Assembly: GCA_021604765.1 (NCBI GenBank)
Contig: BQJP01000011.1
Location: 1 to 64,000 of the forward strand
Direction: 5' to 3'
DNA length: 64,000 nt
Source: Thermodesulfobacteriota bacterium
GTDB lineage: Bacteria; Desulfobacterota_D; UBA1144; Nemesobacterales; UBA2774
Of this stretch, positions 40,542 to 52,815 are shown in pieces (within the stretch, counting starts at the first letter, position 1; each line of letters begins with the position of its first letter). Below the pieces are notes generated by a model. The model was not told the DNA's origin and searched no databases. It was given only the letters and a program-made list of their open reading frames with translations. Position numbers and translations under genes: made by a program.

Positions 40542-42911
40542 CTACCCCCATATCCATTCTTGAATCTCGGGCATATCCTGACCATATTTTTCGATATATT
40601 GTTTGTGATCGATTATCTTGTTCCGCATTTCCTGTTTCGTATAAGCTGCTATAGATCTCAAAATGGGAACTCGATCAATTACATCTTCAACTAAATGAAA
40701 ACGATCAATATCATTAAGTACCGCCATATCAAATGGTGTAGTAGTAGTTCCTTCTTCCTTATAGCCTCGGACATGGAGATTATTATGGTTTGCTCTGCGG
40801 TAAGTTAAGCGATGAATGAGCCATGGATAGCCGTGATAGGCGAAGATTATAGGTTTATCAGTTGTAAATAGTGCATCAAATTCCCAATTTGATAGACCAT
40901 GTGGGTGTTCCTCTTTTGGTTGCAGTTTCATTAGATCGACCACATTTATGACTCGCACTTTTAATTCTGGAAGTTTTTCACGCAGTATTTCTACAGCAGC
41001 TAATGTTTCTATAGTAGGCACATCACCACAACATGCCATTACAACATCAGGCTCGCTCCCCCTGTCATTACTAGCCCACTCCCATATACTTATGCCAGCA
41101 GTACAATGCTTAATGGCGGCATCCATATTGAGCCATTGTGGTTGGAGTTGCTTTCCTGCTATGATGATATTCACATAGTTACGGCTTCTTAAGCAATGAT
41201 CTGTAACCGAAAGCAGCGTATTTGTATCTGGAGGAAAATAAACCCGAATAATATCCGATTTCTTATTTACAACATGATCTATAAAACCCGGATCTTGATG
41301 ACTAAAACCATTATGATCTTGCCGCCATACATGCGATGTTAGCAAGTAATTAAGAGATGCGATAGGACGACGCCAAGGTATTTCTTGGGATGTAACCTTA
41401 AGCCACTTTGCATGTTGATTGAACATAGAATCAACTATATGAATAAAGGCCTCATAACATGAAAATAGTCCATGACGGCCAGTGAGAAGATATCCTTCAA
41501 GCCATCCCTGACATGTATGTTCACTGAGTATTTCCATTATACGGCCATCAGGATCAAGGTGTGAATCTTTGTCGCTATCCTCAGGATAGCGTTCAGCCAC
41601 CCATACTCTTTTAGTAACCTCGAATAAAGAAGTTAATCGATTTGATGCAGTCTCATCCGGTCCGAATATACGGAAATTGCGTTCGTTCATGTTTAACTTC
41701 ATAACATCACGTAATAAATGCCCCATAATTCTAGTAGCTTCTACTTTTTCGTGACCGGGTTTTGATGCCTCCACAGAATATTTTTGAAAATCTGGCATCT
41801 TTAGTTCTTTCAGTAATAGTCCGCCATTTGAATGAGGGTTGTCACTCATGCGGTGATGACCTTTGGGAGTGATATCTGACAATTCGGGAATAAGCTTTCC
41901 GTTTTTATCGAATAGTTTTTCCGGCTTGTAACTTTTCATCCAGTTTTCAAGTAGCTTCACATGACTTGGTTTTGTTGAAAGCTCGCTAAGTGGGACTTGA
42001 TGGGATCGCCAAAAATTCTCTGTTTTTTTACCATCGACTTTTTTAGGACCCGTCCATCCCTTTGGTGTTTTCAGAATTATCATAGGCCACTTGGGACGTG
42101 TGGTAACACCTTTGTTGCGGGCTTCCAGCTGGATTTTGTTAATTTCATCAATTACGATGTCGAGGGTTTCAGCCATTAAACGATGCATGATTTTGGGATT
42201 TGATCCTTCAACAAAATATGATTTATAACCATAGCCAAAGAACAAGCTCTCTAGTTCCATATGACTAATTCTGGCTAAAACCGATGGATTTGCAATCTTA
42301 TAACCGTTCAAATGTAAGATCGGCAGAACTGCACCATCGTTAACAGGATTAAGGAATTTGTTTGAATGCCAAGCAGTGGCGAGAGGGCCTGTTTCGGCCT
42401 CACCATCACCAACCACACAAGCAGCTATAAGGTCGGGATTATCAAATACTGCCCCATAAGCATGGGAAAGTGAGTACCCTAGTTCACCTCCCTCATGAAT
42501 AGAACCCGGTGTTTCCGGGGCGACGTGACTTGGAATACCTCCGGGAAATGAAAACTGTTTAAAAAGTTTTTTCATACCCTCCTCGTCTTGACTGATATCG
42601 GGGTAGTACTCACTGTAGGTTCCTTCAAGATAAGTATTTGCTACTAGCCCAGGACCTCCATGGCCTGGGCCAGCGATGTAAATAATATTAAGATCCCTTT
42701 CCTTAATAACACGGTTAAGATGGACGTAAATGAAGTTTAGTCCCGGCGTTGTTCCCCAGTGCCCAAGTAGCCTAGGCTTTATGTGTTTTAGCTTAAGAGG
42801 TTTTTTCAATAGTGGGTTATCGTAAAGGTAGATCTGTCCAACAGAAAGGTAATTCGCTGCTTGCCAGTATCTGTGCATTTTTTCTAAATATTCATCTTTA
42901 ATATCTGTCAT
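40542..42911 (-). CDS. xfp: Phosphoketolase
   Basis: [75 protein letters not shown]. Confidence 0.95.
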
Positions 42912-42921
42912 AGATCACCTT

Positions 42922-44151
42922 TTAGTGCATCATTTTCTTTGCGTCTTTATGATTATTCTTATTGATGATACAGTATGTATGCCTAGCGATCATCAGTTCT
43001 TCATTGGTCTTTATAACGCGCACTGTTGTTGGGGTTCCAGCAATTGATATGATAGAAGAATTAGTTTCATTCTTACTAAGATTTAGCTGAATGCCTAGAA
43101 ATTCCATTTCGCTACAAATTCGTTTACGGATCTCAGGCGAATTTTCCCCAATACCACCTGTAAAAATTATAGTACCCACGCCTTCTAAAACGGATGCCAT
43201 AGCTCCTAAATATTTTTTTGCTTGATAGCAGAAAATATTGATTGCGTCAGCGGCGTGTGGATTTTCCGCTTCCTTTTCTAAAAGTTCTTTCATATCAGAG
43301 CTTATTCCCGATACTCCGTATAGGCCGGATTTTTTGTTAATGATTTCGTATAACTTCAGAGGAGTTGTTTTCTTTTCTTCAAGCAAGAAACTAATAATTC
43401 CAGGATCTAAATCACCCGAGCGTGTACTCATCATAAGTCCGCCCGTTGGCGTGAATCCCATTGTTGTGTCGACTCCCTTCCCATTCTTAACAGCAACCAT
43501 GCTTGCCCCGTTACCCAAATGAGCAATTATGATTCGACCATCAACCTCACTAGAGCCACCTTCTTTATTGAGTTCTTGAATTATGTATTCATATGACAGA
43601 CCGTGAAAGCCATAGCGCATTACACCTTCGTCCCAGAATTCTCTTGGAAGGGCAAACATTTTTGCTTGCTTGGGCATATTGTTGTGAAAAACTGTGTCGA
43701 AACAGGCAACTTGATTCAGATTCGTATATAAATTGCCAACAGTCTCTATCCCCTTTATTTGTTGAGATAAATGGTCAGGGGCAAGATAAGATATTTTCTT
43801 CAAGTTCGATATTAATTGAGAGGTGATAAAATGATGTGCGATGAAACTTGATCCGCCATTTACTAGCCTATGACCCACGGCATCTATTTTTTTGTTATAT
43901 TTATTATTCTCCAGCCAATTAAATAGAACTCTAAAGGCTGCTTCATGGTTAGGCAGTTCCATATCCAGTTCTATAAGATTAGGATTTAATGACTCGGCAA
44001 CCTGAAAAGTGCTTTCTCTTGACCCAATTCTGTCTATACTTCCTCTTATAATCAATTTTTCATTTTCTCCAATTTCATATATAGAAAACTTTAAGCTTGA
44101 TGAGCCACTATTAATTGCTAATATATAATTTCCCTTTTTATCATTATGCAT
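42922..44151 (-). CDS. ackA: Acetate kinase
   Basis: LAINSGSSSLKFSIYE, VGHRLVNGG, HLGNGASMVAVKNGKGVDTTMGFTPTGGLMMSTRSGDLDPGI. Confidence 0.95.
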   Translation of the reverse strand: MHNDKKGNYILAINSGSSSLKFSIYEIGENEKLIIRGSIDRIGSRESTFQVAESLNPNLIELDMELPNHEAAFRVLFNWLENNKYNKKIDAVGHRLVNGGSSFIAHHFITSQLISNLKKISYLAPDHLSQQIKGIETVGNLYTNLNQVACFDTVFHNNMPKQAKMFALPREFWDEGVMRYGFHGLSYEYIIQELNKEGGSSEVDGRIIIAHLGNGASMVAVKNGKGVDTTMGFTPTGGLMMSTRSGDLDPGIISFLLEEKKTTPLKLYEIINKKSGLYGVSGISSDMKELLEKEAENPHAADAINIFCYQAKKYLGAMASVLEGVGTIIFTGGIGENSPEIRKRICSEMEFLGIQLNLSKNETNSSIISIAGTPTTVRVIKTNEELMIARHTYCIINKNNHKDAKKMMH

Positions 44152-44927: not shown

Positions 44928-45446
44928 TCAAATTTGTTTATTTAATGAATCTCTATCATTTTCTATCGGATCCTTATTCTTCCTCATATCGTTAGGTTTA
45001 AAGTTCATCATTCCTATTAATTTGTTGAAATTATCAAGTCCGACTGCATGTCTTATTGCTGTAAGTGCATCAATAGACGTTAGTGCGTTCTCCAAAGTGA
45101 GAATAACAGATATCTTAATGGCCGATTTTAGTTCTTCAGTATTAAAATCCGGGTTTTTTAACAAGTCCATTACTTTCATTTCAGAAATCCGAAAAGCCGC
45201 CTCTTTTTGGATCATTGGGTATAGATAATCTTTCTTAACATTATCCAGTTCTTTTCTCTGTGAATCTGTGAGCTCTAAAGTACTTGCATTCAGAAGAAAG
45301 TACTGAACCAACATATAACTCTCTACTTTCTTTTTCATCGCTTTGGGTTCATCTTTACTGTCACCACTTCCTTCTATCACTTGTTGGGTAAAAGAGAAAC
45401 TTGTAAGATATAAAGATATAAGCAGCATTTGAAATAATATTTTCAT
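44928..45446 (-). CDS. Secreted hypothetical protein (Spy/CpxP-like helical character)
   Basis: Signal peptide; LELTDSQRKELDNVKKDYLYPMIQKEAAFRISEMKVMDLL resembles periplasmic helical metal-stress proteins. Confidence 0.45.
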   Translation of the reverse strand: MKILFQMLLISLYLTSFSFTQQVIEGSGDSKDEPKAMKKKVESYMLVQYFLLNASTLELTDSQRKELDNVKKDYLYPMIQKEAAFRISEMKVMDLLKNPDFNTEELKSAIKISVILTLENALTSIDALTAIRHAVGLDNFNKLIGMMNFKPNDMRKNKDPIENDRDSLNKQI

Positions 45447-45772: not shown

Positions 45773-46453
45773 TTATTTTTTCTTACTCAGTCCCTGCAAA
45801 TAGACAATAATATCAATTATTTCCTTCTGATCCATGACGTTTCCCCAACCCGGCATTAAGGGCGATTTATCCACGCTGGCTCCGCCATATGTTATTACCT
45901 CAAGTAGGTATGCGTCTGATAAAGTTTGCATATATTCTTCATCCGCTAAATCTCTCGGTTTTGGTCTCATGCTAACGGCAGCTGGTCCGTCTCCCTTGCC
46001 CGAGGTTCCATGGCAAGCAGCACAGTTTCTTTTATATAAAGCCTTTCCGTTTATAACATCAGCATTTTCTGCATCAAGAATTAATTCTTGTCCCGTTATC
46101 TCGGTCGTCTTATCCGCTGATGTCGGAGCTATCGGTTGTGGCGGAGGGTCATTTGTTTCCTGAAGGAATTTGGTTATCGCTCTTGCCTGAGCGGCGGGAA
46201 TTCCGCCTATAACTCGCATATGGCTCACAATTATATTCCACTGAGCGTCGTTATACTCCTGAGGGCTTCTTACATTATGACATCTGCTGCAGTTCTGCGA
46301 CCAAAGATCCGCTCCGCTTAACTCACTCTCCTTCAGTTCTTCTTTAAGTTCCATCTCCCCTTGTCCGTAAGATTTGTCTCCCAAAGAAATCGAGACAACC
46401 ATTAGGAGCAGGCCTAAGAATAATGATATTTTTTTTAGCGTATATTTTTTCAT
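45773..46453 (-). CDS. Di-domain cytochrome c
   Basis: Two heme motifs, CSRCH and CAACH; signal peptide. Confidence 0.88.
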   Translation of the reverse strand: MKKYTLKKISLFLGLLLMVVSISLGDKSYGQGEMELKEELKESELSGADLWSQNCSRCHNVRSPQEYNDAQWNIIVSHMRVIGGIPAAQARAITKFLQETNDPPPQPIAPTSADKTTEITGQELILDAENADVINGKALYKRNCAACHGTSGKGDGPAAVSMRPKPRDLADEEYMQTLSDAYLLEVITYGGASVDKSPLMPGWGNVMDQKEIIDIIVYLQGLSKKK

Positions 46454-46491: not shown

Positions 46492-47835
46492 CTAGAAACC
46501 AAACGCCCATTGCAATAAGACTCTATCTGGTAACCCATCATTAAATTCATAGGCAATTTTCAAAGGTACGCTTGACAAAAGCCACCAGTCAAGCCCAATT
46601 GCATACTGCTCCTCGTCCCGTCCTGGTAGATAATTTTTGCCGTATCTGAAAACAGGCTCAAGCCCGTTTATGAAACCGCCGAGATAACGGTTTTCTATGG
46701 AAATATCGGACAACCTGTAAGAACCCTGGGCATAATATCCGGTCTTCTTAGTCTCACCACTGCCTACATTATCGTTCTTAAGGTGTATGAACTCTGCGAG
46801 TACTAACAACCCTCTGTATTGATATTCTGTGTCGAACCCATACATGAAGAAATTTATATCATCCTCGGCATCACCAAACATAAGCGATCCTCCGACTTCC
46901 CAATTCCATACCGGCAGCAAACCTATCCTTCCACCAAACGCTTTGTTGGAATTTATATCTGTGAAGTTGTTTCCAAAAACTAAATTTGTTTGTGTACCGC
47001 CGTTTCCATTTTCTTCGGGTTCGTCGCCTTCATTAGCGGTAGTTGTTGTTTCATCATTATCATCTCCACCTGATTCCTCGCCGTGATCGTCCTCAGATTC
47101 AATTCTCGGCCCGTTTACAAGGTAAAAGGCGTAATTGATTTTCGATCCTTCAAACATGTTAAGCGCAAAACCGCCGCTGACTTGCGCTCCAATATCACTC
47201 AGTACAGGGACTATACCCCCTTCGTCGTGTCCTCCGTAAATAATCGGTCGACTCGGCATCTTGTTAATCCATGTGGGGTGGAACCTTTGTGAAAAGACGT
47301 TAAACGGCAATATTATTTTTCCCGCACTCAATGTCACATAGTCATTAAGAAAAAAGTCTATCTCACCTATTTCTAAACCTATTTCGAGTTCATCGTCTTC
47401 TAGTTCAAACTCAGGCTCTATAATTACGTGCAAGTTTTTATATAGTTGGTAATGAAATACCGGAGCAAAAACAGCGCTGAATGTACTTGGATTACCATCC
47501 GCTTTATTAAAACCAACAGCACCGTAACCAGTGAAAAGTGTTTTGGACGTATTGAATATGCCGAATTTTTGGATCCTTTCATCAACATAAGATCCAATTG
47601 AAGTGGAAGCCTGCTCCTGTGATTCTTCCTGATCACGGATAACCTGCTCTACCATCTTTTTTTCTTCGGCTCTTTGTTTCTCTAAGTCTTCGACCCTTTG
47701 GTTTAGCCTTCTTATTTCCTCCTTAAGAATCTTTAATTCACCATCTGTATCTTGAGCACTAACTGGATTTAATGCGAAGACCAATAGAAAGGAAATAATT
47801 AATAAAAAAATGAAAATAGAATTGTTTAATCTCAT
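46492..47835 (-). CDS. Outer-membrane porin-like protein with N-terminal coiled coil and acidic insert
   Basis: Signal peptide, heptad region LKEEIRRLNQRVEDLEKQRAEEKK, beta-barrel pattern with C-terminal VLLQWAFGF. Confidence 0.7.
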   Translation of the reverse strand: MRLNNSIFIFLLIISFLLVFALNPVSAQDTDGELKILKEEIRRLNQRVEDLEKQRAEEKKMVEQVIRDQEESQEQASTSIGSYVDERIQKFGIFNTSKTLFTGYGAVGFNKADGNPSTFSAVFAPVFHYQLYKNLHVIIEPEFELEDDELEIGLEIGEIDFFLNDYVTLSAGKIILPFNVFSQRFHPTWINKMPSRPIIYGGHDEGGIVPVLSDIGAQVSGGFALNMFEGSKINYAFYLVNGPRIESEDDHGEESGGDDNDETTTTANEGDEPEENGNGGTQTNLVFGNNFTDINSNKAFGGRIGLLPVWNWEVGGSLMFGDAEDDINFFMYGFDTEYQYRGLLVLAEFIHLKNDNVGSGETKKTGYYAQGSYRLSDISIENRYLGGFINGLEPVFRYGKNYLPGRDEEQYAIGLDWWLLSSVPLKIAYEFNDGLPDRVLLQWAFGF

Positions 47836-47943: not shown

Positions 47944-47959
47944 TGCAAGTTGAATACCA
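47944..47959 (-). promoter_or_regulatory. Sigma-54 promoter TGGTAT-N5-TTGCA upstream of the porin/cytochrome operon
   Basis: GG and GC dinucleotides at exact -24/-12 spacing; 109 nt before the 47835 start. Confidence 0.6.
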
Positions 47960-48056: not shown

Positions 48057-48092
48057 TGTTGAAAATTCAACACATGGCGTTGGATATCCAAC
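48057..48092. promoter_or_regulatory. Tandem palindromic enhancer (UAS): TGTTGAAAATTCAACA and GTTGGATATCCAAC, centres 21 bp apart
   Basis: Two inverted repeats sharing GTTGRAWATYCAAC, placed between two divergent sigma-54 promoters. Confidence 0.65.
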
Positions 48093-48177
48093 TATAAAAA
48101 GGGCTGAACAAATTATTCAAACAGGAAATCATTAGAAAAATTAGCGATCAAAGCTGAATAGCTCTACTCTAGTCTCA

Positions 48178-48193
48178 TGGCATATAACTTGCC
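48178..48193 (+). promoter_or_regulatory. Sigma-54 promoter TGGCAT-N5-TTGCC upstream of the histidine kinase
   Basis: Exact -24/-12 spacing; about 135 nt before the 48329 start. Confidence 0.7.
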
Positions 48194-48328: not shown

Positions 48329-49417
48329 ATGATGCTTAATCAATGGAAAATCAACAAACTTAGTCTTAGATTGGGTCTAATTATAATTATTGTTTTAGTA
48401 GTTGGATTAGGCTCTCTTCATTTTTTTACTGATAGAGAGATGTTCGAAGCTTATCAACATTTCTATTATGTACCAATTATACTCGCAGCAATTTGGTTTG
48501 GTTGGCTTGGAGGCTTAATTGTATCACTTATTATATCCTTGACTTATATACTCGAACTAATCGTTAGCCCTTTTAACGTTATGGGGCTCTATTCAGAAAT
48601 ACTTTTTTATATTCTTGTAGGTGTCGGGATCGGTTTTCTGGTGGATATAGAAAAAAAACAAAAAGAGAAGTTAGAAGAAACGTCTGAAGAACTAAGTAAA
48701 GCATATATAAAGCTACAAAACACCTATGAGATGCTTAGGCAATCGGATAGACTGGCTCTATTAGGGCAGCTTTCCGCAGGACTTACACACGAGATTAGAA
48801 ATCCACTCGGTTCTATCAAGGGAGCAGTAGATATACTAGAAAATGAGTTTGATAAAGAAAACCAAAAATATGAATTCGTACTAATAATTAAAGATGAAAT
48901 AAAAAGACTTAATCGGCTTCTAATGAACTTTACTCGCTATGCAAAACCCCCTGAGTTAGAATTACGAGAGGTTGATATAAAAGAAATCATTAATCCAGTG
49001 ATTAGTCTTATAAGAGCTACAGCAAAACAAGATAATGTTAAGATATTAACAGAATTGGGTAGCGACCTCCCTCCAATCTTGGTAGATTCCGAACAACTGA
49101 AGCAGGTATTTTTTAATATTATACTAAACGGTGTTCAGTCTATGCCCTCAGGGGGCAACCTGAAAATCAAAACTGTAAGAAACGACAATCATTTAGAAGT
49201 ATCGATCGAGGATGAGGGAATCGGAATCGAAACTGAGAAGCTACGTAAAATCTTTGAGCCCTTTTTTACAACCAAAGAAAACGGTACTGGTTTAGGCCTA
49301 GCAATTTCATATCAGCTGGTTAAAAAACATGGCGGAGATATAAGCATTCACCCGAACACTAAACGAGGTTTAACATTCTGTGTAAAGATCCCTATAGAGC
49401 AAAGTGATGAAAAATAA
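48329..49417 (+). CDS. Membrane sensor histidine kinase (NtrB/ZraS-like)
   Basis: GLTHEIRNPLGSIKGAVDIL H-box, G boxes, FEPFFTTKENGTGLGLAIS. Confidence 0.92.
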   Translation: MMLNQWKINKLSLRLGLIIIIVLVVGLGSLHFFTDREMFEAYQHFYYVPIILAAIWFGWLGGLIVSLIISLTYILELIVSPFNVMGLYSEILFYILVGVGIGFLVDIEKKQKEKLEETSEELSKAYIKLQNTYEMLRQSDRLALLGQLSAGLTHEIRNPLGSIKGAVDILENEFDKENQKYEFVLIIKDEIKRLNRLLMNFTRYAKPPELELREVDIKEIINPVISLIRATAKQDNVKILTELGSDLPPILVDSEQLKQVFFNIILNGVQSMPSGGNLKIKTVRNDNHLEVSIEDEGIGIETEKLRKIFEPFFTTKENGTGLGLAISYQLVKKHGGDISIHPNTKRGLTFCVKIPIEQSDEK

Positions 49418-50795
49418 AACTATCTTATTGATAGATGATGATAAAAGCTTTAGAAGAGTAATAGAATATCAACTCGTCGAAGAGGGGTATGAAGTAATTA
49501 CTGCAGACAATGGGTCTATAGGTCTCGATATATTAAGTAATCAAAAAATCGACTTGGTTATAACCGATATTCGTATGCCTGAAATGGATGGTTTGGAACT
49601 TCTTAAAAAATTAAAAGAAATTTCATATGATGGGATTGTAATTGTTGTAACTGCATACGGATCAATTGAGTCGGCTGTAGAAGCTATGAGGTTAGGAGCT
49701 AATGACTATATAACAAAACCAGTAGACAAGAATGAGCTCTTACTTAAGGTTGAAAAAGCTCTTAAGTACAAAGACCTTTTGATTGAGAATAAGACCCTCC
49801 GGGAATTTTTATCGGGATCATTCAATTTCGATAATATGATCGGTAAATCATCGGCATTGAAAGAAGTCTATGAGATTGTTAGTCAGGTCGCTAACATCGA
49901 TTCTTCTATTTTAATTCAAGGTGAAAGTGGTACGGGGAAGGAAGTACTGGCTAAAGCGATTCACTTTAACAGTCTCAGAAACACTAAACCTTTTGTTGTC
50001 GTAAATTGTGGCGCAATCCCGGAGAACTTACTTGAATCTGAGCTTTTTGGTTATAAGCGGGGTAGTTTCACTGATGCTAGAACAGATAAAGCTGGAAAAT
50101 TTGAAGCCGCTGAAGGAGGTACTATCTTCCTTGACGAAATAAGCGAACTACCTTTAAAACTCCAGGTCAAAATTCTAAGAACACTTCAGGATAAAGAAAT
50201 TGATAAAATCGGCGAGCTAAAGCCACGCAAGGTAGATGTACGAATTATTGCGGCTACAAATCAAGATCTTAAAAAATTAGTATATGAGAAACAGTTTAGG
50301 GATGATCTTTTTTATCGCCTGAGTGTTATTCCGATAAGTCTACCACCGCTCAGGGAAAGACAAGGGGATATACCGCTTCTAGCTGTTAATTTTCTTGATA
50401 AGTTTGCTAAGCTATTTGGCAAGAATGGTATAAATTATGATGATGAGGTTATTAAGGTCTTCTGTAAATATCATTGGCCGGGAAATATTCGAGAACTTGA
50501 AAATTTGATTCATAGGCTAGTGGTGCTTTGTCAAGGTGAGATTATTTCTAAAAATGATCTGCCAAAAGAGCTCCTCGAAGGAAAAATATCTGAGGCACTA
50601 GATTACATACTGCCTATCCCTGAAAGTGGTATCGACTTAAAGAATTTGGAAAGAGAATTAATTGTTCAAGCTCTTATAAAGAAGAATTGGAATCAGACTC
50701 AGGCAGCTAAACTATTGAATATATCACGAAATTCCCTAATTTACAGCATGCAAAAATATGGTATCAAACACCAAGTACCCAGTGATAAAAACTAA
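49404..50795 (+). CDS. Sigma-54-dependent response regulator (NtrC/ZraR family)
   Basis: Receiver DIRMPEMDG; GESGTGKEVLAKAIH; GAFTGA-equivalent reads GSFTDA; Fis-type HTH WNQTQAAKLLNISRNSLIYSMQKY. Confidence 0.95.
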   Translation: MMKNKTILLIDDDKSFRRVIEYQLVEEGYEVITADNGSIGLDILSNQKIDLVITDIRMPEMDGLELLKKLKEISYDGIVIVVTAYGSIESAVEAMRLGANDYITKPVDKNELLLKVEKALKYKDLLIENKTLREFLSGSFNFDNMIGKSSALKEVYEIVSQVANIDSSILIQGESGTGKEVLAKAIHFNSLRNTKPFVVVNCGAIPENLLESELFGYKRGSFTDARTDKAGKFEAAEGGTIFLDEISELPLKLQVKILRTLQDKEIDKIGELKPRKVDVRIIAATNQDLKKLVYEKQFRDDLFYRLSVIPISLPPLRERQGDIPLLAVNFLDKFAKLFGKNGINYDDEVIKVFCKYHWPGNIRELENLIHRLVVLCQGEIISKNDLPKELLEGKISEALDYILPIPESGIDLKNLERELIVQALIKKNWNQTQAAKLLNISRNSLIYSMQKYGIKHQVPSDKN

Positions 50796-50839: not shown

Positions 50840-51064
50840 TCAATGATATCCTTGCTTATCTTTATGCTCTGTTAAATTTGGCTCCATAGAATGGGGTCTT
50901 ATTGAGTCGCATTTTGTCTTGTCATCAGGGTTCTTATCAATACACTCCTGATATTCTTGATAGCCATAACTTCCAGGACTCTCTGAAAAAATCGGACGAT
51001 ACGAACAACTCGCAAAAAGAACAATAGTAAAAATTATCATCAACAATTTTATGGTTAACCTCAT
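50840..51064 (-). CDS. Small lipoprotein
   Basis: Lipobox LFASCSY. Confidence 0.6.
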   Translation of the reverse strand: MRLTIKLLMIIFTIVLFASCSYRPIFSESPGSYGYQEYQECIDKNPDDKTKCDSIRPHSMEPNLTEHKDKQGYH

Positions 51065-51078
51065 AAATTAACTGTAAA

Positions 51079-51094
51079 GGCAATTAATATGCCA
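51079..51094 (-). promoter_or_regulatory. Sigma-54 promoter TGGCAT-N5-TTGCC upstream of the small lipoprotein
   Basis: Reverse complement of GGCAATTAATATGCCA; exact spacing. Confidence 0.65.
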
Positions 51095-51210
51095 ATAGAG
51101 AATATCAAAGTATGGAGTACTTATACTACCAAAAAATTTAGAAATATTATGATTTTCCTTGATTAAGTACACAAATAAGTAAATCAGGATGATGATTTTC
51201 AAACGCCTAT

Positions 51211-51226
51211 TGTTGTATTTTCAACA
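51211..51226. promoter_or_regulatory. Candidate UAS TGTTGTATTTTCAACA matching the 48057 palindrome
   Basis: Same 16-nt frame TGTTGNANNTTCAACA; lies between two divergent sigma-54 promoters. Confidence 0.6.
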
Positions 51227-51365
51227 GTTCGAAGATTAAATAATCATTTTAGATAAAGAGAATTATATTTTTATCCCTAGTTTTTATTCATAAATGATTT
51301 TATTGGCCAAAATAAATATTAAATCTGCTGTCTCTGTTCTGAACTAAGAAATGTAAATGCTTATA

Positions 51366-51381
51366 TGGCACTTAAATTGCC
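51366..51381 (+). promoter_or_regulatory. Sigma-54 promoter TGGCAC-N5-TTGCC upstream of the antiporter
   Basis: Consensus TGGCAC and TTGC at exact spacing. Confidence 0.75.
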
Positions 51382-51474
51382 ATACTAAAAATATAAAAAC
51401 TATAAACTTCATTTTAGTAGCGACCGGAGAAAAAAATAAGCGTAAAACACTTTGACCCATTATCACTGATTTTA

Positions 51475-52815
51475 TTGGAAATTGTACTTATTATCATTGC
51501 AGCTGTGATAGGCCGTTGGTTAGCCAGAATATTAAAACAACCCACGGTTTTGGGAGAATTGGTTGCTGGAATAATCATTGGTAATATTGGCTTTTGGTTT
51601 GATATGCCGATTTTTACTTTAATAATGGAGCTTAGCAATGTAGAAGAGATTTTCAGAGTTATCTGTTCATCCGGAATCTCGGTCGCTGAGGGTGTCAGAC
51701 ATGTTTACTCTCCGACTCAACTCACAGATGGTGAAATTGGGAATCAGCTTTTGGCGATACTCACTGGTACTCACGCCCCCAGATACATAATTATGGGGTT
51801 TACTTTATGGCTGTTCTCCGGTCTTGGAATTATCATTCTACTTTTCATGGTTGGACTTGATACAAGCATAGCCGATATGAAAAATGTAGGGAGACAGGCA
51901 ACAATGGTTGCCTTATTTGGTGTAGCAATTCCTCTGATTCTGGGAATTGTTATTAGTTATTGGATTCTGCTGGAATCTTCCATATCGTTCAGACTGTTTT
52001 TAGGAGCCACGTTATCGGCAACGAGTATAGGCATTACAGCAAGGCTATTCAAAGACCTGAATCAAATCCAAGACAAAACCGTACAAATAATTCTAGGTGC
52101 TGCAGTAATAGATGACATAATTGGTTTGATACTACTTGCCATTGTAGTGGCAATTGCAACAGCTGGTGAGTTAGATTTGCTTCTAATCTTACGTATTTCA
52201 ATACTTTCTATTATGTTCTTAGGAGCAGTCTTTTTTTTCGGTGAGCGCTTAGTTCGCTGGACATTGGTCAACAGATTTGATCAGAAAAACCAGAAACTAT
52301 TGTATTCTATTTGCCTCGCTTTTACTCTTTCCTTGGTCGCAAATTTGATCGGACTATCTTCGATTGTAGGTGCCTTCGCTGCAGGTTTGATTCTTAGTGA
52401 AAGTTATTTTACCAAAAGCTCATCTGATAAGGCAACTATAAAAGATTTAATTGCTCCTCTTGAAGCTGTATTTACACCAATATTTTTTGTTCTTATGGGA
52501 ATGCAAGTTAATTTAACAACTTTTTTGATGGAGGACGCTATATGGCTATCTTTATCAATCACAGCAGTAGCAATTCTTGGGAAACTATTATCAGGTATCT
52601 TTGCCGGCCGCCAAAATGATCGCCTGTCAATAGGAATCGGAATGGTTCCTCGAGGTGAAGTAGGTCTAATATTTGCTATTATAGGTAAAAGTTTGGGGGT
52701 ATTTAGCAATACTATATTCTCTGCAGTTGTTTTCATGGTCATTGTTACAACATTGATTACACCAGTACTATTAAAGTGGTCTGTAAATAGAAATCCTAGT
52801 GCTTCTATTGGTTAA
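51475..52815 (+). CDS. CPA2-family cation:proton antiporter (the real start is probably upstream)
   Basis: LARILKQPTVLGELVAGIIIGNIGFWF, GATLSATSIGITARLFKDL, FFVLMGMQVNL. Confidence 0.88.
   Translation: MEIVLIIIAAVIGRWLARILKQPTVLGELVAGIIIGNIGFWFDMPIFTLIMELSNVEEIFRVICSSGISVAEGVRHVYSPTQLTDGEIGNQLLAILTGTHAPRYIIMGFTLWLFSGLGIIILLFMVGLDTSIADMKNVGRQATMVALFGVAIPLILGIVISYWILLESSISFRLFLGATLSATSIGITARLFKDLNQIQDKTVQIILGAAVIDDIIGLILLAIVVAIATAGELDLLLILRISILSIMFLGAVFFFGERLVRWTLVNRFDQKNQKLLYSICLAFTLSLVANLIGLSSIVGAFAAGLILSESYFTKSSSDKATIKDLIAPLEAVFTPIFFVLMGMQVNLTTFLMEDAIWLSLSITAVAILGKLLSGIFAGRQNDRLSIGIGMVPRGEVGLIFAIIGKSLGVFSNTIFSAVVFMVIVTTLITPVLLKWSVNRNPSASIG

Follow-up and report, generated by a model that had tools for sequence, protein, structure and literature searches.

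Why should the genes for a small lipoprotein and a cation:proton antiporter be separated by an intergenic region (51079–51381) in which two exact, divergent sigma-54 (−24/−12) promoters stand on either side of a 16-bp dyad, TGTTGTATTTTCAACA? Positions refer to the window, the 64-kb stretch of DNA analyzed here, which is part of a 3.42-Mb genome. Here, we propose that the region very probably works as a bidirectional enhancer for an NtrC-type regulator whose gene lies nearby, and that it belongs to an autoregulated sigma-54 two-component regulon, for which metal or envelope stress is the most likely role. The −24/−12 promoters have upstream dyads approximately 80–200 bp away, as in regulons of this class. 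The features are listed in Table 1.

Table 1. Promoters, dyads, and genes of the two intergenic regions and their surroundings. Predicted starts and dyad centers are given for the promoters.
Feature	Position	Strand	Remarks
Sigma-54 −24/−12 promoter TGGCATATTAATTGC, small lipoprotein	51080–51094	−	predicted start 51068; dyad centers −129.5/−150.5
Sigma-54 −24/−12 promoter TGGCACTTAAATTGC, CPA2 antiporter	51366–51380	+	predicted start 51392; dyad centers −173.5/−194.5
Strong enhancer dyad TGTTGTATTTTCAACA	51211–51226	none	proposed regulator-dimer site
Degenerate second dyad TGATGATTTTCAAACG	51190–51205	none	21 bp from strong dyad; includes ATTTTCAA half-site
Enhancer dyad 1 TGTTGAAAATTCAACA	48057–48072	none	16/16 bases identical in G005
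Enhancer dyad 2 CGTTGGATATCCAACT	48078–48093	none	21 bp from dyad 1
Sigma-54 promoter TGGTATTCAACTTGC, porin/cytochrome operon	47945–47959	−	predicted start 47933; dyads −131.5/−152.5; conserved in G005
Sigma-54 promoter TGGCATATAACTTGC, kinase–regulator operon	48178–48192	+	predicted start 48204; dyads −118.5/−139.5; conserved in G005
NtrC-type response regulator	49404–50795	+	receiver, sigma-54 AAA+, Fis-type HTH
Sensor histidine kinase	48329–49417	+	HisKA + HATPase_c; hydrophobic N-terminus, without large periplasmic domain
Small lipoprotein, 74 aa	50840–51064	−	lipobox LFASC, C-x10-C, C-terminal GYH
CPA2-type cation:proton antiporter (PF00999)	51475–52815	+	called start TTG 51475
Porin-like outer-membrane protein	46492–47835	−	first gene of divergent operon; porin by appearance only; same order in G005
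Cytochrome c	45773–46453	−	second gene of divergent operon

The preliminary description of the locus had reported a divergent pair TGGCAT/TGGCAC-N5-TTGCC with a palindrome between the two promoters, and both elements and the palindrome are found exactly at the positions in Table 1. It had also placed a half-site 22 bp upstream of the palindrome. The string ATTTTCAA does occur at 51195–51202, and again 22 bp farther on in the strong dyad, but the whole degenerate dyad describes the site better, and the natural spacing is 21 bp, the register of all other pairs. The left half of the degenerate dyad lies in this register and the right half comes one base early, which accounts for the 22-bp offset. 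On the lipoprotein side, the predicted start is only 4 nt before the ATG at 51064, so that either the transcript would be nearly leaderless or translation begins at a downstream TTG/ATG (51062–51068). On the antiporter side, a good GGAG ribosome-binding sequence (51426–51429) is located 6 nt before an in-frame ATA at 51436, not before the called TTG. The true start may be this ATA, and the arrangement reflects either a rare AUA start or an assembly base error.

The tandem-dyad design recurs at 48057–48093, before the kinase and regulator genes, which bears out the repeated architecture noted earlier. When this intergenic region was aligned with that of G005, a genome of the same genus, the proposed elements kept 62 of 69 bases compared with 317 of 427 elsewhere (p = 0.0035).

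The elements were weighed by their rarity. Within the window, TGGCACN5TTGC with at most one mismatch occurs only at the 51080, 51366, and 48178 sites, with 2.2 expected by chance, and this count taken alone is not significant. In the whole genome, exact TGGCAYN5TTGC occurs at 46 sites, including these three. The dyad pattern put forward in the preliminary description, TGTTGNANNTTCAACA, has perfect matches in the genome at 48057 and 51211 only. A genome-wide search for tandem pairs returned 48058–48092 as the sole exact match and 51191–51225 among just five matches with two mismatches. In 1.5 Mb of fetched sequence, a position matrix, trained on most of the sites that it then scored, gave 29.0 for the 51190–51226 pair, 22.1 for one different pair, and at least 34.9 for seven other pairs, all adjoining sigma-54-type elements; the reversed control on the same 1.5 Mb yielded no pair of 20 or more. 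Farther afield, the matches listed for the 16-base pattern in a viral sequence collection were scattered and chance-like for so large a collection. Approximately 1.35 Mb of loci, many with regulators of 40–51% identity from many phyla, contained no 21-bp tandem pair otherwise beside such genes.

The occurrence of the dyads follows that of the regulator. The protein matches PF00072, PF00158, and PF02954 (HTH_8), all above cut-off, and RpoN is encoded in the genome (PF04552 at C19:36304, E = 2.6e-54). Close orthologues are present in three of 58 genomes of the phylum: the window's own (100% identity), G005 (89%), and G026 (70%), the last from the same order and another family. The best matches in all other phylum genomes are at most 49% identical. 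The three orthologues have one and the same HTH core, KNWNQTQAAKLLNISRNSLIY, from which other, more distant regulators deviate. Exact tandem dyads (GTTGN6CAAC, N7, GTTGN6CAAC; 21 bp apart) were found in 3/58 genomes, which are precisely the three with a close orthologue. Four other phylum genomes have single matches with one mismatch that disappear under the stricter GTTGRAN3YCAAC, and the reversed pattern matched none of the three orthologue genomes. Other members of the window's genus have neither a close orthologue nor exact dyads, with gaps in the draft genomes as a caveat. The three genomes represent only two independent lineages, and the co-occurrence therefore rests on few events. As to the kinase, HisKA and HATPase_c are the sole Pfam matches, and its hydropathy profile shows no long periplasmic segment. 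In its N-terminal part, the connecting segments are short and the motifs LHF.T and YQH.YY are conserved; that the kinase senses within the membrane would be a guess.

The tandem enhancer precedes the kinase operon in all three genomes. In G005, the kinase and the porin/cytochrome operon are separated by the pair, and both sigma-54 elements are conserved; no tandem dyad was found downstream of the regulator gene. G026 has five such enhancers (C61:10293, 15177, 26290, 42026, and C96:1343). At sigma-54 promoters, they precede a DUF302–kinase–regulator operon, from which a gene for a Gly/His-rich secreted protein diverges; operons for CzcCBA and for CusCBA, the latter having a dyad pair of its own next to a sigma-54-like element; a small protein gene and, after it, the Rieske, cytochrome b, and cytochrome c genes (Rieske/bc1 operon); and a gene for a 157-aa secreted protein. 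A sixth tandem pair in G026, C96:1247/1267 (L187:1247-1282), has a different sequence (TGTAGAATATTCCACT/TGTCTAATATTCTACA, 20 bp apart) and was dropped as a site of the present regulator. It lies between divergent sigma-54 promoters and is probably an enhancer of another NtrC-type regulator. The promoter C96:1122, which has this different pair, is not in phase and is probably not a target.

The distance from dyad to promoter is also unusually well conserved. Starts were predicted 12 bases downstream of the C in TTGC, and dyads were assigned to promoters by proximity. At six of 11 non-orthologous promoters (the porin and lipoprotein promoters of the window and the kinase operon, CzcCBA, CusCBA, and C96 plus promoters of G026), the proximal dyad is centered at −129.5 to −131.5 and the distal dyad at −150.5 to −152.5. 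No uniform simulation out of 100,000 reproduced this clustering of the proximal dyad. Others are shifted from −130.5 by about whole helical turns: −12 for the window kinase, +43 for the antiporter, +84 for the G026 Gly/His-rich protein, and −44 for the G026 bc1 operon. One exception, C96 minus of G026 (+110), has a separate dyad pair. The Rayleigh test for helical phase at 10.5 bp gave p = 0.002 with 10 promoters and 0.014 with C96 minus as the eleventh. The recurrence of −130/−151 at unrelated promoters suggests that the distance between enhancer and promoter in sigma-54 systems can be kept nearly as constant as the binding site itself. Elements, conservation, co-occurrence, and geometry are all read directly from the DNA.

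These features bear on the earlier proposal of one local regulon with four promoters. A single regulon is the best reading of the sequence data, as the design stands before the kinase–regulator operon in three genomes, tracks the regulator over 58, and keeps a conserved spacing that includes the lipoprotein promoter. In G026, the putative regulon extends far past the promoter region of the regulator itself and takes in Czc/Cus-type efflux and other operons. Because the same enhancers precede the CzcCBA and CusCBA operons there, a role in metal or envelope stress appears most likely. The genes of the window probably form one stress-response circuit, considering that paired sites are common to both intergenic regions and that a relative has them at the same promoter distance before heavy-metal efflux pumps.

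The best homologue of the small lipoprotein (38% identity, E = 9e-8) is encoded after CusA at the end of the enhancer-linked CusCBA operon of G026, which ties the same gene to the same type of enhancer via a different promoter. Both proteins have the C-x10-C and C-terminal GYH features, and weak homologues are found in several congeners. The lipoprotein is possibly a periplasmic metal-binding protein. The porin-like protein of the divergent operon had no Pfam match. After the cytochrome gene, past a gap of ~330 bp, stands a gene for a putative Spy-like protein (44928–45446), a candidate counterpart of ZraP. Over 99 aa, it has 48% identity to a G026 protein that itself matches LTXXQ weakly and below the cut-off (E = 0.0058). 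The window also has its own CusABC, whose CusA is 62% identical to that of G026; upstream of these genes there is neither a dyad nor a sigma-54 element with up to two mismatches. CusABC and the putative Spy-like protein in the same neighborhood point to a metal-efflux island common to the two genomes, and it is this neighborhood that suggests the metal link inside the window. The putative regulon would tie the lipoprotein and the antiporter to metal-efflux operons. Phosphoketolase-like and acetate kinase-like genes (40542–44151, minus strand; named from translations only) adjoin the metal/cytochrome cluster.

Here, we propose a mechanism for the circuit. NtrC-type enhancers are activating sites ~100–150 bp upstream of the promoter that work through DNA looping and an AAA+ hexamer (PMC7057263), and the arrangement found here implies loop-mediated activation from a shared enhancer. 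When the signal is received, the kinase would phosphorylate the regulator, whose dimers would occupy the tandem TGTTGAAWWTTCAACA dyads. The 21-bp spacing corresponds to two helical turns, and two dimers on the same DNA face may nucleate the hexamer and form the ATPase ring. Through looping, the ring would open the waiting sigma-54 RNA polymerase at the promoters on either side. The enhancer at 48057–48093 would serve the kinase–regulator and porin/cytochrome c operons, and that at 51190–51226 the small metal-island lipoprotein and, probably, the CPA2 antiporter. Autoregulation would create a positive loop. We infer the binding of the regulator, its phosphorylation, the dependence on sigma-54 in vivo, and the signal.

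The antiporter is the least certain arm, and the porin/cytochrome, regulator, and lipoprotein arms are better supported. Points against the proposed reading include the degenerate state of the 51190 dyad and the lack of a tandem dyad downstream of the regulator gene in G005. The lipoprotein promoter may be the sole real target of the 51190–51226 enhancer, with the antiporter promoter at 51366 fortuitous or under another sigma-54 activator. The lipoprotein promoter has the common −130/−151 geometry, whereas the antiporter promoter is more distant and is without a counterpart in the relatives. Moreover, neither G005 nor G026 encodes a close orthologue of the antiporter near the regulator, and identity to the nearest relatives of the antiporter in the phylum does not exceed 45% over the main match. 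The 16 matches to the regulator in the genome indicate that other activators exist. However, the −24/−12 element at 51366 is exact, its dyads are in helical phase (approximately four turns), an exact promoter at −214.5 in G026 shares the same kind of enhancer, and no other dyad of the TGTTGAAWWTTCAACA type was found near the antiporter promoter. On balance, a lipoprotein-only enhancer seems somewhat unlikely.

It is quite improbable that some other regulator, such as a repressor, binds the dyads while another NtrC-type protein activates the promoters. Many HTH proteins recognize such dyads, but the dyads co-occur with the present regulator in all three genomes that have it and in none of the other 55, and the present regulator is favored by a tandem spacing fixed at 21 bp, by a conserved distance to the sigma-54 elements, and by the autoregulatory position. 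Even less credible, and practically negligible, is the idea that a palindrome and sigma-54-like strings came together by chance in AT-rich intergenic DNA. The promoter counts within the window would allow it, but the genome-wide rarity, the tandem-pair statistics, the conservation of feature bases in the sister region, and the geometry all speak against it.

The bidirectional enhancer and its regulator resemble several known systems. ZraSR (HydHG) of Escherichia coli, with the targets zraP and zraSR, is likewise a self-controlling sigma-54 two-component system linked to zinc and envelope stress (PMC7657598). However, the NCBIfam equivalog cut-offs were missed (ZraR, 370 versus 760 bits; ZraS, 196 versus 479 bits), only the kinase part of ZraS aligns, the kinase here lacks the large periplasmic sensor domain, and most targets differ. 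CorSR of Myxococcus xanthus acts on the copper tolerance operon curA, and its likeness lies in a kinase paired with a regulator that combines receiver, sigma-54, and HTH_8 domains, in the control of metal-tolerance genes, and in several predicted sigma-54 promoters within one cluster that includes lipoproteins (PMC3707914). CorS, unlike the kinase here, contains HAMP and a periplasmic sensor domain, and the cluster content differs; no enhancer dyads for CorSR were found in the main text of that paper. Compared with NtrC-type enhancers in general, the recognition sequence differs, and two sigma-54 promoters that diverge apparently share one enhancer. In NCBIfam, both the kinase (248 bits) and the regulator (479 bits) score best against AtoSC of E. 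coli. These scores are far under the respective cut-offs of 646 and 714 bits, and the genes linked to the circuit here are for metal efflux and cytochromes. HupR, an NtrC-family regulator of hydrogenase, uses TTG-N5-CAA sites, and the dyad spacer here is 6 bp. The proposed circuit works like ZraSR and CorSR, yet by curated scores it is outside ZraSR and AtoSC.

No description of this enhancer motif was found in a limited literature search. We tentatively raise the possibility, itself doubtful, of a new class: a sigma-54 metal/envelope-stress system with an in-membrane sensing kinase and a dedicated TGTTGAAWWTTCAACA tandem enhancer, held near-fixed at −130/−151 (or whole turns off) across unrelated targets in two families. 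If so, the loop geometry itself would be under selection and could offer a way to tell from sequence which genes belong to a regulon. The analysis yields a specific putative regulon and a candidate binding motif for a regulator of a lineage seen here only via draft genomes.

Other divergent sigma-54 pairs in the same genome were compared with the 51080/51366 pair. The C16:45292/45578 pair (L189:3293-3593; C16:45292-45592) has the same 286-bp spacing, and on reading no dyad of the TGTTGAAWWTTCAACA type lies between its promoters; the same is true of the divergent pair C9:75905/76058. Both were therefore taken as promoters of other regulators. The exact divergent pair C2:65490/65722 (L013, L014; C2:65490-65736) has a weak related dyad, TACTGAATATTCAACT, with a matrix score of 10.7, and adjoins a paralogous NtrC-type gene at C2:67149.
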